Source: Terriglobia bacterium
GTDB taxonomy: Bacteria; Acidobacteriota; Thermoanaerobaculia; Thermoanaerobaculales; Thermoanaerobaculaceae
Assembly (NCBI GenBank): GCA_020073245.1
Contig: JAIQFQ010000002.1
Location: 62,001 to 126,000 of the forward strand
Reading direction: 5' to 3'
DNA: 64,000 nt
Made by a program: the position numbers and the translations under genes. How positions within the stretch are numbered: position 1 is the first letter of the stretch; every line of letters begins with the position of its first letter. This document shows positions 43,403 to 62,523 of the stretch, piece by piece. Under the pieces are notes generated by a model. The model was not told where the DNA came from and searched no databases. It saw only the letters and a program-made list of their open reading frames with translations.

Positions 43403-43627
43403 CTACTCGGTTCCCTGCTCTTCCATGTCGTTGGGAACCCCCAAGCGCTGACATGCGGCGTCGTACATCTGGCGTGCGGCTTTTTGCGCCGCTTGCAGTT
43501 CCGCGATGCGCTGCTTAACGCGTTGCAGCTCTTCCTGGATCTGATTCTCTAGATCTGCGATCTCCTGCTTCGTGACCTTGCGAGTCTCCTCGTAGAACTT
43601 CCGTTGCTGGTCTGTGAGAACCGACAT
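43403..43627 (-). CDS. Small coiled-coil protein
   Basis: A 74-residue, almost wholly helical protein. The stretch from about 12 to 52 (ETRKVTKQEIADLENQIQEELQRV, then AELQAAQKAARQ) has heptad spacing of Ile, Leu and Val. One cysteine lies in the C-terminal third. AGGAGG lies five bases before the ATG. It is 15 bases after the kinase-TonB gene on the same strand, so they are probably co-transcribed. Function unknown. Confidence 0.75.
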   Translation of the reverse strand: MSVLTDQQRKFYEETRKVTKQEIADLENQIQEELQRVKQRIAELQAAQKAARQMYDAACQRLGVPNDMEEQGTE

Positions 43628-43642
43628 GAAATCCTCCTCTTT

Positions 43643-46525
43643 CTAGAGCTTGAAGGTCGTGGTCAAAGAAATATGCACCTTGACTCGTACGCCGTTCTTT
43701 GTGGCTGGCCTGAACCGCCACGTCCGGACTGCGCTCACCGCCGCCGCGTCGAGTCCGAAGTCGGGCCTGATCCCCTTCACCACCTTGACGTCCTCTACGT
43801 TGCCGTTCTCGTCGACGAGGACGTCCATCGTCACGGCGCCGGTCTGACGCTGGCGGGCGGCCAGAGCCGGATACGTTGGCGGAGTCCTGGAAATGGCCTG
43901 CGGCGGAATGACGTCGGGTCCTGGCTCGACGACGTCCCCGACCTGCACGGGCGCCTGGGCCGGGGCCTGCGGCGGGGCCGCCGCCGGAGCGGCTACAACC
44001 GGCGCAGGAGTCGGAGGCGCCGCGGTGGGTTCGGTGGCGGGAGGTGCCGTGGTCGGCTCCGGCGCCGCAGCGGCGGGCGCCGCCGTTGCTTGTGGCGCGG
44101 CGGGCTGCACCTGCGGAGGCGCCTGCGCGGCCGCCTGCTGCGCGGGAGGATTCGCGGCAGGCTGTGCTGGCGGTGGCTGCTGGCGTTGCACGGCCGCCGC
44201 GGTCGGCCGGACGGCTGCCGGTGCCGCGGGCCGCGCCTGCGCCGCCGGGGCGAGGATTTCGCCAGCGAGCTTCTCCCGCAGCGCCTGGGTCTGCTTGGCC
44301 ACCTCCTGTTGCGCAACCTCGCGCGCCATCTGGACGGTCTCCGGCACCGGCGTCCCCTCGGCGGTGGGAGCCTCGGCGGGGCGCTTTGCTCTTGTCAGGA
44401 GGAGCACTGCGGCCACGATGGCGAGCACAGCGATGACCACGGCCGCCACTGGGGCCAGACGAATACCGCTCGGCGCGTGGAGATCCGCCGGCGTCCCCTC
44501 CCGCACCGGCTCCATCACTGGGATGCGCGGTGTCGGCTTGGGCTTCGGCGGTTCCGCCGGGACCGGTGGCGGTTTGAGGGGTACAACTGGTGGAGGCGGC
44601 GCCGGACGTGCGGCCGGCGCGGTCGCTGTGCTGGCCGGCCGCTCGCGGCCGACCAGATCAGCCAGGAACGCACCGAGCTCGGGGGCCCCGGGCGCAGGGC
44701 GAATGGACTGCAGGATGCTCACGAGATCGGAGGCGAGGTCGGCCGCAGTCTGGTAGCGGTCCTCACGGTTTTCCTTCAGCGCCTTCAGCACTACGCGCTC
44801 AACCTCAGGGGGGATCGACGGATCGATGTCACGCGGGGGGACGAGGCGCGGTGCACGAACCTGCTCGAGGATGGAGAGCTCGGAGTCGCCGGCGAACCCC
44901 TTGCGGCCGGTGAGCATCTCGTAGAGCACCAACCCAAGCGAGAAGATGTCCGAGCGGTGATCGATGTCCCGTCCCCACGCCTGCTCGGGCGACATGTACT
45001 GCAGCTTGCCCTTGAGAGCACCGGCACGAGTGTGCGAGGCCTTTGAGGCGGCCTTGGCGATACCGAAGTCGCAGAGCTTGATATCCCCGTCGTACGAAAT
45101 CAACACGTTTTGAGGGGACACGTCCCGGTGCACCAACGCCATCGCGGTGCCCTGGAGATCCTTCTTGCGGTGCGCGTAGTCGAGCGCCGCCGCCAGGCGC
45201 GAGCCGATGAACAGCGCCAGGCCGAGCGGGAGGCGGGATTTCTTCTCCTCCAGGGTGCGCAGGATCGAGCGCAGGTCCTTGCCGTCGATGTACTCCATCG
45301 CGATGTAGTAGGAGCGCTCGATCTTCCCGAGGTCGTAGATGTGGATGATGTTGGGGTGCTGGAGCTGCGCCGCCAGCTTGGCCTCGTCCACGAACATCGT
45401 GACGAATTCATCGTTGTCCGTCAGGTGAGCCAGGATGCGCTTGATGGCGACGATTTTCTGGAACCCCTCGACGCCTTTCATTCGAGCTCGGTACACCTCA
45501 GCCATGCCGCCTGTGGCGATCGGCTCGATGAGCTCGTACTGTCCGAACGGCGTGCCCCCAGGCAAAGGTCCGGGGCCCTTCTCGACCTCCGCACCGGTCA
45601 CTGGGGACTTCGGCGGTAGTGGCGGTGCGCCTTTGGTCACGACCGCGTAGGGCCGTGTAGGTTCGGGGGTCGTGGGCGTCGTGGGTTGCGCCGGGCGCGG
45701 CGGGGCCGGTTGTTCGGGCGCGACGGCTGGTCGCGTGGTCTTCCCGTGCAGGCCGCCAAGATCGAGGCCCGAGAGAGTGTCGGACAGCAGCTTCTCCACA
45801 GCCGTATCCGTACCCGTCTCGCGAGGCCTGGTGGGCTTTGGCGCGGAGCGTCCGAGCTCGGCCAGCGTGTCCGCCACGGCCTGGTCGGCTCCCGAACCAG
45901 CGGTGCCGGCATGTGCCGGCGGCTTCGGAGGCGGGACGGGCTTCACCGGTGGAAGTTGGTTTGGCGGCAGCGCCGGCGACGGGATCGCGATGCGCTGTGT
46001 GTCGGCCGGGCTCCCACCCTGCTCCTCGGCAAGAAGGTCACCGAAGAGGTCATTGGATGTGACGGTGCCGCCGACCTTCGCGGAAGCTGCTCCGCGCCGC
46101 AGCGCCTCCAACATCTCGGCTCGCGTGTCCGGGTTGACGGTAGCCTCGGCGCGGGGGTGCGAGAGGAGCGCCGCCACGTGCGCCGCCAGCTCCTCGTTGG
46201 AGAAGGGCTTGGCGACGATGTCCTGAGCGCCGAGCTTGGTCGCGTCTGCCTTGGGGTCATGGCCGTTGTACCCGCTCATCATGACCAGGAACGGGGTGTG
46301 ACGCAGGCCGGCACGAGCGCGCAGTTGCGTGATGGCGTCCTCGACCTTGAGCCGTGGAAGCACGGACGTCGTCAGCACGATCTTGGGCTCGACCTTGGCG
46401 CAGGCCGCGACGGCTGCGTCCACATCCTTGGCCGTGATGACCTCGCACCCGAGCGACGAGAGCGCTTCCGCGATCCGCACGGCGGTTCGGGGTTCGTAGT
46501 CGAGAAGGAGAACGGCTTGGCTCAT
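43643..46525 (-). CDS. Receiver-Ser/Thr kinase-TonB fusion protein
   Basis: 960 residues. An N-terminal receiver-like domain (about 1-120) precedes a Pro-rich linker, a Hanks-type kinase (about 328-605), another Pro-rich linker, one helix (about 690-711), a long Ala/Pro/Gln-rich periplasmic stalk and a TonB C-terminal domain (about 870-960; PPTYPALAARQRQTGAVTMD, then TWRFRPATKNG). The kinase is complete: VAIKRIL Lys362, HRDVSPQNVL 467-476, CDFGIA 485-490. The receiver has Asp9 and Lys106, but the phospho-Asp position reads LTTSVLP (Thr53). It could link cytosolic phosphorylation to outer-membrane contact. The ATG at 46525 is near the divergent yebC gene. Confidence 0.92.
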   Translation of the reverse strand: MSQAVLLLDYEPRTAVRIAEALSSLGCEVITAKDVDAAVAACAKVEPKIVLTTSVLPRLKVEDAITQLRARAGLRHTPFLVMMSGYNGHDPKADATKLGAQDIVAKPFSNEELAAHVAALLSHPRAEATVNPDTRAEMLEALRRGAASAKVGGTVTSNDLFGDLLAEEQGGSPADTQRIAIPSPALPPNQLPPVKPVPPPKPPAHAGTAGSGADQAVADTLAELGRSAPKPTRPRETGTDTAVEKLLSDTLSGLDLGGLHGKTTRPAVAPEQPAPPRPAQPTTPTTPEPTRPYAVVTKGAPPLPPKSPVTGAEVEKGPGPLPGGTPFGQYELIEPIATGGMAEVYRARMKGVEGFQKIVAIKRILAHLTDNDEFVTMFVDEAKLAAQLQHPNIIHIYDLGKIERSYYIAMEYIDGKDLRSILRTLEEKKSRLPLGLALFIGSRLAAALDYAHRKKDLQGTAMALVHRDVSPQNVLISYDGDIKLCDFGIAKAASKASHTRAGALKGKLQYMSPEQAWGRDIDHRSDIFSLGLVLYEMLTGRKGFAGDSELSILEQVRAPRLVPPRDIDPSIPPEVERVVLKALKENREDRYQTAADLASDLVSILQSIRPAPGAPELGAFLADLVGRERPASTATAPAARPAPPPPVVPLKPPPVPAEPPKPKPTPRIPVMEPVREGTPADLHAPSGIRLAPVAAVVIAVLAIVAAVLLLTRAKRPAEAPTAEGTPVPETVQMAREVAQQEVAKQTQALREKLAGEILAPAAQARPAAPAAVRPTAAAVQRQQPPPAQPAANPPAQQAAAQAPPQVQPAAPQATAAPAAAAPEPTTAPPATEPTAAPPTPAPVVAAPAAAPPQAPAQAPVQVGDVVEPGPDVIPPQAISRTPPTYPALAARQRQTGAVTMDVLVDENGNVEDVKVVKGIRPDFGLDAAAVSAVRTWRFRPATKNGVRVKVHISLTTTFKL

Positions 46526-46674: not shown

Positions 46675-47421
46675 ATGTCAGGCCACAACAAGTGGAGCAC
46701 GATTAAGCACAAGAAGGGCAAGCTCGACGCGAAGCGCGGCAAGCTCTTCACCAAGATCATCCGTGAGCTGACGACCGCCGCGCGCGAAGGCGGCGGCGAC
46801 GCCGATGGCAACCCGCGCCTGCGCGCCGCGATCGTGTCCGCCAAAGCGGCCAACATGCCGGGCGACACGTTGCACAAGGCGATCCAGCGAGGCACCGGCG
46901 AGCTCCCCGGCGTGTCGTACGAGGAGGTCACCTACGAGGGCTACGGTCCCGGCGGCGTGGCAGTCCTGCTGCACGCGCTCACGGACAACCGCAACCGCAC
47001 CACGGCGGAGCTTCGCCACATGTTCGGCAAGCACGGCGGCAACCTCGGCGAGAGCGGCTGCGTGGCGTTTCTGTTCAAGAAGCAGGGGTACCTCCTCCTC
47101 CCCAAGACCGTCGGCGACGAGGACAAGGTCATGGAAGCGGCGCTCGAGGCGGGCGCGGAGGATTTCTTCGCGGACGATCCCGAGTTCTACGAGATCTACA
47201 CGGCCCCGGAGGAGCTCCACAAGGTCAAGACCGCGCTCGAGGCGGGCGGGCTCACCGTGGAGCAAGCCAAGGTCGAGATGGTCCCGACCACGCAGGTCCG
47301 CCTGGAGGACAGGCGGGCCGAACAGATGGTCCGCTTGATGGAAGCGTTCGAGGATCACGACGACGTCCAAAACGTCTGGGCCAACTTTGACATCGACACG
47401 AAACTGCTCGAGGTGGGCTGA
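46675..47421 (+). CDS. yebC: YebC/TACO1-family protein
   Basis: 248 residues. MSGHNKWSTIKHKKGKLDAKRGKLF is the highly conserved start, and AREGGGDADGNPRLRAAI, YEGYGPGGVAVLL, LTDNRNRTTAELRH and DFDIDTK-like ANFDIDTKLL follow. Older annotations call it a transcriptional regulator; recent work ties the family to translation of proline-rich stretches. The window encodes several such proteins, including the kinase-TonB protein encoded divergently. ruvC begins inside its 3' end. Confidence 0.96.
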   Translation: MSGHNKWSTIKHKKGKLDAKRGKLFTKIIRELTTAAREGGGDADGNPRLRAAIVSAKAANMPGDTLHKAIQRGTGELPGVSYEEVTYEGYGPGGVAVLLHALTDNRNRTTAELRHMFGKHGGNLGESGCVAFLFKKQGYLLLPKTVGDEDKVMEAALEAGAEDFFADDPEFYEIYTAPEELHKVKTALEAGGLTVEQAKVEMVPTTQVRLEDRRAEQMVRLMEAFEDHDDVQNVWANFDIDTKLLEVG

Positions 47422-48023: not shown

Positions 48024-48890
48024 ATGGCACTCCAGGGCTCACTCGCTGACATCGCACTGCCGGACGTGATCCAGCTGGTGAGCGTCTCGGGCAAGACCGG
48101 CGTGTTCACCCTATCCGCTGAGGGGGCGGACGGCAAGATCTTCATCAAGGACGGGCAGATCACCGACGCCATCGCCGGCAAGCTCTCCGGAGAGTTCGCG
48201 GTGTACGAGATGGCCGCATGGCGCAAGGGCCAGTTCATCTTCACCGCGAACATCGAGTCCGACCGTGTCACCGTGAACAAATCCAACACGAGCCTGATGA
48301 TGGAGGCGGCACGGCGACTCGACGAATGGCGGGTGCTGCAGCGCAAGATCCCCTCCATGGACGCTATCCCGTTCTTCCTTCCGCGCGAGCCGGGCCACGA
48401 CCAGATCACCCTTTCGCCGCAGGAATGGGCGATTGTCACCAAGATCGACGGTCAGCTCTCGATCGCCAAGCTCGAACAGGCCACGGGTTTGCCGGCGTTC
48501 GACGTCTGCAAGGTCCTGTATGGCCTTGTCACGTCCGGTCTGATCTCCCTGAGACCCGGCGAGGAGGGGTCGGCCGCCGCCCGGAGCCAGGCTGTTCCGG
48601 TCGGCCCGTCGCAACGTTCGCTTCTGGCACTCGCGGAGAACGTGCGCAAGCTGGCGGACGACAGCGTCGGGTTGTCGGGATCGATCGCCGTCGAGAAGCA
48701 GTACCGCGTGGCCCGTGCGGAGATCGAAGCCGGCGGCGGCATCTCGGCCGTTCACGGCCTGGTGGACCGACTGGCTCGTGCCATCTCGCTCCTCGAAGGC
48801 GGGGACAAGGCCGGTGAGTTCCTGCGGCGGGTCAACCCGCTCATCGAGATCGGTCCGACGGAAAGCAAACCGCAACCAAAGCATTCCTAG
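48024..48890 (+). CDS. DUF4388 (PATAN) domain protein
   Basis: 288 residues. LQGSLADIALPDVIQLVSVSGKTGVFTLS and GKIFIKDGQITDAIAGKLSGE are the PATAN domain (DUF4388, about 1-105). These domains occur in gliding and signalling proteins of Myxococcota, Acidobacteriota and Cyanobacteria. A winged-helix-like middle (about 130-180, QEWAIVTKIDGQLSIAKLEQATG) and a helical tail follow. The ATG at 48024 lies in a 127-base gap that also holds a TTGACA at 47902-47907. It may be a response-regulator partner; no kinase adjoins it. Confidence 0.88.
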   Translation: MALQGSLADIALPDVIQLVSVSGKTGVFTLSAEGADGKIFIKDGQITDAIAGKLSGEFAVYEMAAWRKGQFIFTANIESDRVTVNKSNTSLMMEAARRLDEWRVLQRKIPSMDAIPFFLPREPGHDQITLSPQEWAIVTKIDGQLSIAKLEQATGLPAFDVCKVLYGLVTSGLISLRPGEEGSAAARSQAVPVGPSQRSLLALAENVRKLADDSVGLSGSIAVEKQYRVARAEIEAGGGISAVHGLVDRLARAISLLEGGDKAGEFLRRVNPLIEIGPTESKPQPKHS

Positions 48891-61813: not shown

Positions 61814-62523
61814 CGGCTCACCCACAGCCCGACCACGGCAGCCTCGATCACCGGTCCCCCTGCCGAGGGGTCTTGGCGCAGTACCGTACCGGGCGACACG
61901 CCCGGGTAGTTCACGCGCTGTACCGTCGCGAGCTGGAGTCCCAGGGCGCGGATAGCCCGGGAGGCATCCGTCTCCGCCGCTCCGACAAACTCGGGCATCA
62001 CGTAGCGCTTCTGGCGCGGCGTGCGGTTGACCAGCAGTGTGACCGCCGACTCCGGCGCGACCAGCGTCTCGGCGGCCGGCATCTGCGCCAGCACGACGGC
62101 CCCGTCGGCCTGGCCCTCGACCTCGCACCGGCGCTCGACCTTGAGGTGTTCGCTCTCGATCTCGGCCTCGGCCAGCGAAATCGGCAGCCCGGTCAGGTCG
62201 CCGAGCTTCTGGACCGCCTTCCCCAGTGAAGGGTAAAGCATGACGGTCGCGCCGCGCTTGAGCTCAAAACCGGCTGGCGGTCGCTGGGATGCGATCCTGC
62301 CGAGCCCTACCTGCGGGTCGAAGACTCCTTCCTGAATGCGCGCCACGAGCCCGCTGCCTTGAATCACGGCGGCCGCGTGTGCCGTGTCCATGTCGGAGAC
62401 GTTCGGCACACGCGTCGCGGAGGAACGCAAGCTGACCCAGAGGACCACCCAGATCGCGAAACCGCACCCTGCCAGCAGGCCCAGCCCTGCCAGCAGGAAG
62501 CGGAGAAATCGGCTCGCTCCCAT
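61810..62523 (-). CDS. Membrane-anchored PASTA-domain protein
   Basis: 237 residues. One helix (about 9-31) then three PASTA domains (about 38-103, 104-170, 172-236), each with the P-x-(V/L)-x-G/x-A start (VPNVSDMDTAHAAAVI, LGDLTGLPISLAEAEI, MPEFVGAAETDASRAI). PASTA domains bind muropeptides or lipid II. No kinase or transpeptidase domain is fused. It heads the operon PASTA-rpe-bamD-LysM-Fis-SLT. Confidence 0.9.
   Translation of the reverse strand: MGASRFLRFLLAGLGLLAGCGFAIWVVLWVSLRSSATRVPNVSDMDTAHAAAVIQGSGLVARIQEGVFDPQVGLGRIASQRPPAGFELKRGATVMLYPSLGKAVQKLGDLTGLPISLAEAEIESEHLKVERRCEVEGQADGAVVLAQMPAAETLVAPESAVTLLVNRTPRQKRYVMPEFVGAAETDASRAIRALGLQLATVQRVNYPGVSPGTVLRQDPSAGGPVIEAAVVGLWVSR

Follow-up and report, generated by a model that had tools for sequence, protein, structure and literature searches.

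The locus and its gene

The window, that is, the whole 64,000-nucleotide stretch of DNA analysed here, covers positions 62001–126000 of a long contig (C58) and lies in the contig interior. Its minus strand carries a 960-aa open reading frame, from an ATG at 46525 to a stop at 43643, in which a receiver-like domain, a Ser/Thr kinase, a single transmembrane (TM) helix, a Pro/Ala-rich stalk and a TonB C-terminal domain (TonB_C) form one chain. An earlier note had read this layout from the DNA alone, and Pfam matches, hydropathy and composition bear it out. The features of this gene and of the gene that follows it are:

43403..43627, minus strand: cc74, gene for a 74-aa coiled-coil protein; downstream of the kinase gene in almost every relative
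43643..46525, minus strand: gene for the pseudo-receiver/kinase/TM/stalk/TonB_C protein, 960 aa; open frame, Pfam matches and the same chain elsewhere
46175..46513, minus strand: aspartate-less receiver, aa 5–117; Pfam, family alignment and AlphaFold2
46022..46060, minus strand: linker motif 1, TSNDLFGDLLAEE, aa 156–168; Phe161 invariant, association with the cc74 gene
45857..45892, minus strand: linker short helix 2, aa 212–223; AlphaFold2 helix, Leu221 nearly invariant
45773..45808, minus strand: linker short helix 3, aa 240–251; AlphaFold2 helix, D244, T250 and L251 nearly invariant
44747..45538, minus strand: Hanks-type Ser/Thr kinase, aa 330–593; Pfam, catalytic residues invariant
44393..44449, minus strand: single TM helix without the TonB/TolA His, aa 693–711; hydropathy
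43940..44392, minus strand: periplasmic Pro/Ala-rich stalk, aa 712–862; composition
44264..44341, minus strand: charged, Pro-free, probably helical stalk segment near the membrane, aa 729–754; similar segment in relatives
43646..43882, minus strand: TonB C-terminal domain, aa 882–960; Pfam, solved TonB structures match

All three Pfam domains score over their cut-offs: Response_reg at aa 5–117 with 40.7 bits (cut-off 30.2), Pkinase at aa 330–593 with 142.8 bits and TonB_C at aa 882–960 with 72.6 bits. Solved TonB domains match the C-terminal region, with E. coli TonB (1u07, E 6.9e-07) as the best hit in the structural database. The stalk comprises 151 residues, of which 33% are Ala and 22% Pro. 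TM orientation is deduced from the kinase's need for ATP, which would place kinase and receiver in the cytosol; the detailed topology is likewise a deduction. Within the stalk-coding DNA, ARAGORN calls a tRNA-Arg (44167–44249, plus strand) that is most likely a false positive produced by GC-rich Pro/Ala codons.

Reality of the fusion and spread of the family

A scan with one genome per species returned 80 relatives, for the most part Acidobacteriota. Among the kinase ORFs extracted from them (contig ends cut many others), receiver, kinase and TonB_C occur in one frame at 42 loci besides the window, mostly in Acidobacteriota metagenome-assembled genomes; this is the domain-architecture search that had been proposed as a check. 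Nearly all relatives are metagenome-assembled, gene calls there are simple ORFs, and counts of relatives, neighbours and motifs throughout come from kin genomes that are not phylogenetically independent. The closest full-length relatives, from independent assemblies, share 47–77% identity with the window protein over their best segment. Assembly of the source genome in 89 contigs speaks for an assembly artefact or a chance fusion of neighbouring genes, but the 42 relatives carry the same chain in independent assemblies, several of them in long contigs, and the receiver and kinase motifs are conserved across it. Because the window itself also lies inside a long contig, misjoining is excluded, and an artefact or chance fusion is left with practically no probability. 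The earlier note had named two outcomes that would undo its reading, a misjoined assembly and a C-terminal domain that binds no receptors in a common, characterised family; the first is ruled out by these independent relatives and, of the second, the family did prove widespread in the phylum, whereas no characterised family was found. The open-access literature yielded no published description of a receiver-kinase-TonB_C or kinase-TonB_C protein.

The window's genome gave 49 Pkinase matches, some partial. Pkinase and TonB_C coincide at only two places there, the window gene and a 645-aa pseudokinase-TM-coiled coil-TonB_C protein on contig C31 (L146:5065-6999) with a rho-like gene adjacent. The latter resembles the window protein in its kinase-like fold, TM helix, stalk and TonB_C; it differs in lacking the catalytic motifs (HRD, DFG and the VAIK Lys), a receiver and cc74.

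Kinase and pseudo-receiver

The VAIK Lys362, Glu381, HRD (466–468) and DFG (486–488) are invariant in 32 aligned relatives, in agreement with the initial reading of the kinase motifs as intact. Since these catalytic motifs are invariant, kinase activity is expected.

The receiver is degenerate. In the window protein, the alignment places Thr53 at the phospho-acceptor position and Tyr10 at the second acidic position, while Ser84 and Lys106 remain. The phospho-acceptor column of 54 family receivers contains S 21, T 16, N 8, R 4, D 3 and A 2; as the Asp is thus lost in 51/54, receiver degeneracy is, on this alignment, a family trait and not a local accident. In the same 54 receivers, the second acidic position is mostly Tyr, which gives a common start [D/E]YEPR, and Ser/Thr 84 and Lys/Arg 106 are largely retained. 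AlphaFold2 gives a confident (beta-alpha)5 receiver fold (pLDDT about 97), and solved receivers match the model in PDB comparison with TM-scores by target length of 0.75–0.86 for single-receiver targets. The domain is therefore an aspartate-less pseudo-receiver by the criteria in PMC12632262, as the missing phospho-Asp had first suggested. FrzS of Myxococcus, whose receiver (2i6f) is among the structural matches, binds SgmX through its pseudo-receiver (PMC12632262). The two have in common a receiver fold without a phosphorylatable Asp, but only the window pseudo-receiver shares its chain with a Ser/Thr kinase and an anchor that spans the envelope.

A TonB-like tip without motor features

In TolA and TonB, motor coupling depends on an SHLS motif in the TM helix, which binds the motor, and on a beta-strand motor box after the TM helix (PMC12204202). 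The window protein shares with TonB and TolA the TM helix, the Pro-rich periplasmic stalk and a TonB_C that aligns with E. coli TonB 1u07; in contrast, it has neither the SHLS-type His nor the motor box, and its TM helix lies behind a large cytosolic part. These differences hold across the family. His occurs in the 19-residue TM core of 0/48 distinct kinase-TonB proteins (three have one in the TM flanks, outside the core) compared with 19/19 ordinary TonBs encoded at the same loci or in the window's genome. Ordinary TonBs have a post-TM motor-box strand (e.g., VYVVQQV) that kinase-TonB proteins lack, and median beta propensity after the TM helix is 1.06 in kinase-TonB proteins versus 1.43 in ordinary TonBs (p = 3.6e-10, a value that overstates independence because the sequences are related). 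With TM His and motor box both missing, the kinase-TonB protein is probably not an ExbBD-driven TonB and probably does not pull. On these two defining features, neither of which was found, it falls outside the TonB transducers, and the suggestion that the protein is itself loaded by an ExbB/ExbD motor finds no support. It may be that certain motor pairings not yet studied work without the TM His, which would count against an uncoupled protein. The charged, Pro-free, probably helical stalk segment recurs in 44/48 kinase-TonB stalks and is a possible dimerisation segment.

A second energy transducer, driven by ExbB/ExbD and with the kinase reporting or regulating its work, would be consistent with the good preservation of TonB_C and with an exbB-exbD-exbD-tonB block that lies divergently near the gene in 17 loci. 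Those loci, however, already have an ordinary TonB with both motor features, and absence of the TM His in 48/48 proteins, absence of the motor-box strand and an internal TM helix preceded by ~700 cytosolic residues all argue against a motor-driven role; this explanation is already disfavoured and very improbable.

A tree (few columns, weak deep forks) places 17/18 ordinary TonBs in one supported group without any kinase TonB_C; with ordinary TonBs grouping apart, there is no support for the idea that the kinase TonB_C arose by recent copying of the neighbouring tonB. TonB-dependent receptors and ExbD occur in 25/25 genomes checked, including lineages whose copy lacks TonB_C, which keep 10–42 plug matches. 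Counts of these receptors and ExbD are thus uninformative as a predictor of TonB_C retention, and co-occurrence with TonB-dependent receptors does not discriminate.

Gene neighbourhood

Two genes on the opposite strand of the window are conserved neighbours:

46675..47421, plus strand: yebC, divergent neighbour, opening a block that runs on into exbB-exbD-exbD-tonB in relatives; synteny
48024..48890, plus strand: gene for a DUF4388 protein, conserved neighbour; Pfam 79.7 bits, synteny

The divergent block includes exbB-exbD-exbD-tonB in 17 relatives (one of them truncated at its contig end); where the sequence runs on, DUF4388 and TPR genes usually come next. At the window locus exbB-exbD-exbD-tonB is absent; it occurs on another contig of the window's genome. 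A DUF4388 gene stands beside yebC-ruvC in most Thermoanaerobaculia-type loci, and a TPR gene in many. On the other side, cc74 is followed in the window by BtuF and BtuD-like genes, the importer that had been recognised from the DNA. BtuF/BtuD-like genes are among those after cc74 in 19 relatives, with accD directly after it in others, and one locus (L014) has both these genes and exbB-exbD-exbD-tonB. Such neighbours link the module loosely to TonB-dependent uptake, a tie that synteny in relatives supports.

The neighbourhood also bears on whether the protein could be a cell-wall or generic envelope-stress kinase whose stalk and TonB_C touch peptidoglycan or lipoproteins, not TonB-dependent receptors. 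Hanks-type receptor kinases of the PknB/PASTA class likewise have a cytosolic kinase, a single TM helix and an extracytoplasmic part that may drive dimerisation, and this common order of Hanks kinase, TM helix and extracytoplasmic sensor fits such a role. PknB_PASTA is the nearest NCBIfam model for the window protein, although below its cut-off (308.7 of 450), and the divergent yebC/ruvC and nearby ftsEX offer no specific uptake cue. Nevertheless, a Pfam scan finds no PASTA repeats in the window protein, its TonB_C tip closely resembles that of TonB proper, and its family's neighbours are often TonB-linked uptake genes, which makes an envelope-stress role improbable. An N-terminal pseudo-receiver and an HRDVSPQN catalytic loop further distinguish the protein from the PknB/PASTA class.

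cc74, a probable partner, and the linker motif

The start of cc74 lies 15 bases downstream of the kinase gene, as originally noted, and no Pfam or NCBIfam model scores over its cut-off on the product. It occurs in 108/297 genomes of the phylum, some of them single-contig, with one match in the window's genome. Two cc74-like ORFs (L137:9956-10312 and L139:4167-4505) follow an Era-type GTPase gene instead of a kinase gene, and the genome of the former locus (G154) has two cc74 matches.

AlphaFold2 predicts a disordered receiver-kinase linker with three short helices (157–166, 212–223 and 240–251), the first of which corresponds to a motif [ST]Sx[DE][LI]FG[DE]xL, also given as TSxDLFGDLL. Its Phe161 is invariant in 44 aligned relatives, a set chosen for having the motif. 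A better gauge of motif frequency comes from loci where both ends are readable: 51 have motif and cc74, five have cc74 only, none has the motif only and 14 have neither. Among the five cc74-only loci, L047 looks frameshifted and L038 begins at a contig end. The same linker motif was found in no other gene of the fetched loci. Vicinamibacteria-type kinases without receiver and TonB_C retain both motif and cc74, which points to the motif, and not to the receiver or TonB_C, as the cc74 contact. The motif is predicted from these associations to be a likely docking site for cc74, which strengthens the initial suggestion of a coiled-coil partner: the gene follows the kinase gene nearly everywhere and is associated with the linker motif.

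Modular variants and a possible scaffold

More distant loci reveal rearranged forms. Kinase-less receiver-TM-TonB_C proteins followed by cc74 occur at L127, L133, L136 and L138; TonB_C proteins with neither receiver nor kinase detected occur at L132 and L141; and kinase-TM forms at L126 and L128 end at the TM helix without TonB_C, their N-terminus resembling a diverged receiver. Among all these kinase-less forms, L127 alone retains the motif. In single-contig genomes of family f33, TonB_C was likewise undetected in the forms present. The constant element among variants is cc74. Because some cc74 loci are without a kinase and others without TonB_C, neither the kinase nor the outer-membrane tip strictly requires the other. 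At L130:6933-10057, in a single-contig genome, the receiver is encoded in one frame and kinase-TonB_C in another that overlaps it, either because the gene is truly split or through a frameshift introduced by sequencing.

These variants have a parallel in the Agl-Glt gliding machinery of Myxococcus xanthus, whose modular proteins GltG and GltJ each combine TonB_C with a single TM helix and a helical region in the periplasm (PMC3169522, PMC5349195). GltG has a signalling domain of cytosolic type, FHA, and operates alongside AglRQS, which consists of an ExbB-like and two ExbD-like proteins (PMC3169522, PMC9389320, PMC5349195). GltG and the window protein share the TM helix and TonB_C, but the latter has a pseudo-receiver and an active-looking kinase where GltG has FHA, and a Pfam scan finds no FHA domain in it; for this reason the window protein is not a GltG member. 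GltG also binds AglR, whereas the window protein is without the motor-binding His and motor box, and Myxococcus belongs to a different phylum. GltG/GltJ and protein-binding pseudo-receivers are the closest working analogues.

By this analogy the protein could be a scaffold and not a sensor, with receiver and linker recruiting cytosolic proteins (cc74 and others) to outer-membrane sites fixed by TonB_C, as in GltG/GltJ of the Myxococcus focal adhesions, and with the kinase as an added regulator. The existence of kinase-less receiver-TM-TonB_C proteins with cc74, the persistence of cc74 with kinase-less and TonB_C-less forms, the joining of FHA and TonB_C in an AglR-binding protein (PMC3169522, PMC5349195) and the binding of SgmX by the FrzS pseudo-receiver (PMC12632262) all favour scaffolding. 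Against it, most members retain an intact and strongly conserved kinase, and more frequent decay would be expected if scaffolding were the main job. We regard a scaffold as credible but unlikely.

Proposed mechanism and implications

Our tentative main reading, with a probability of roughly 0.4, is that Acidobacteriota have in this protein a passive sensor or tether kinase that spans the envelope and would operate as a hybrid between GltG/GltJ and a receptor kinase. Its kinase and aspartate-less receiver would reside in the cytosol, joined through a disordered linker that contains short helical motifs, and the TM helix would lead into the periplasmic Pro/Ala stalk, whose TonB_C tip would extend to the outer membrane and engage a TonB-box-like strand. 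TonB-box binding is known chiefly for force delivery; here the protein would register or hold outer-membrane contact rather than pull, and the contact would perhaps be made free or occupied by a separate motor-driven TonB. A periplasmic state, such as dimerisation of the stalk helix, would be carried inward through stalk and TM helix and would set kinase activity. Docked on TSxDLFGDLL, the cc74 protein would act as an adaptor, a regulator or the first substrate, with the pseudo-receiver as a platform that binds proteins independently of phosphorylation. Partner binding, signalling direction, substrates and function are what we infer from domains, conservation and analogues.

A further-reaching claim would be that these proteins constitute a new trans-envelope signalling class, in which a motor-uncoupled TonB-like tip passively reads outer-membrane receptor state and is wired directly to a Ser/Thr kinase, while an undescribed coiled-coil protein, the obligate partner, docks on a linker motif; we consider this doubtful. 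If the sensor or tether reading is true, the protein would provide a one-chain route from the outer membrane to cytosolic phosphorylation, and both the pseudo-receiver and the undescribed cc74 family would gain a testable job. The module occurs in many Acidobacteriota, a phylum that is abundant and hard to grow.
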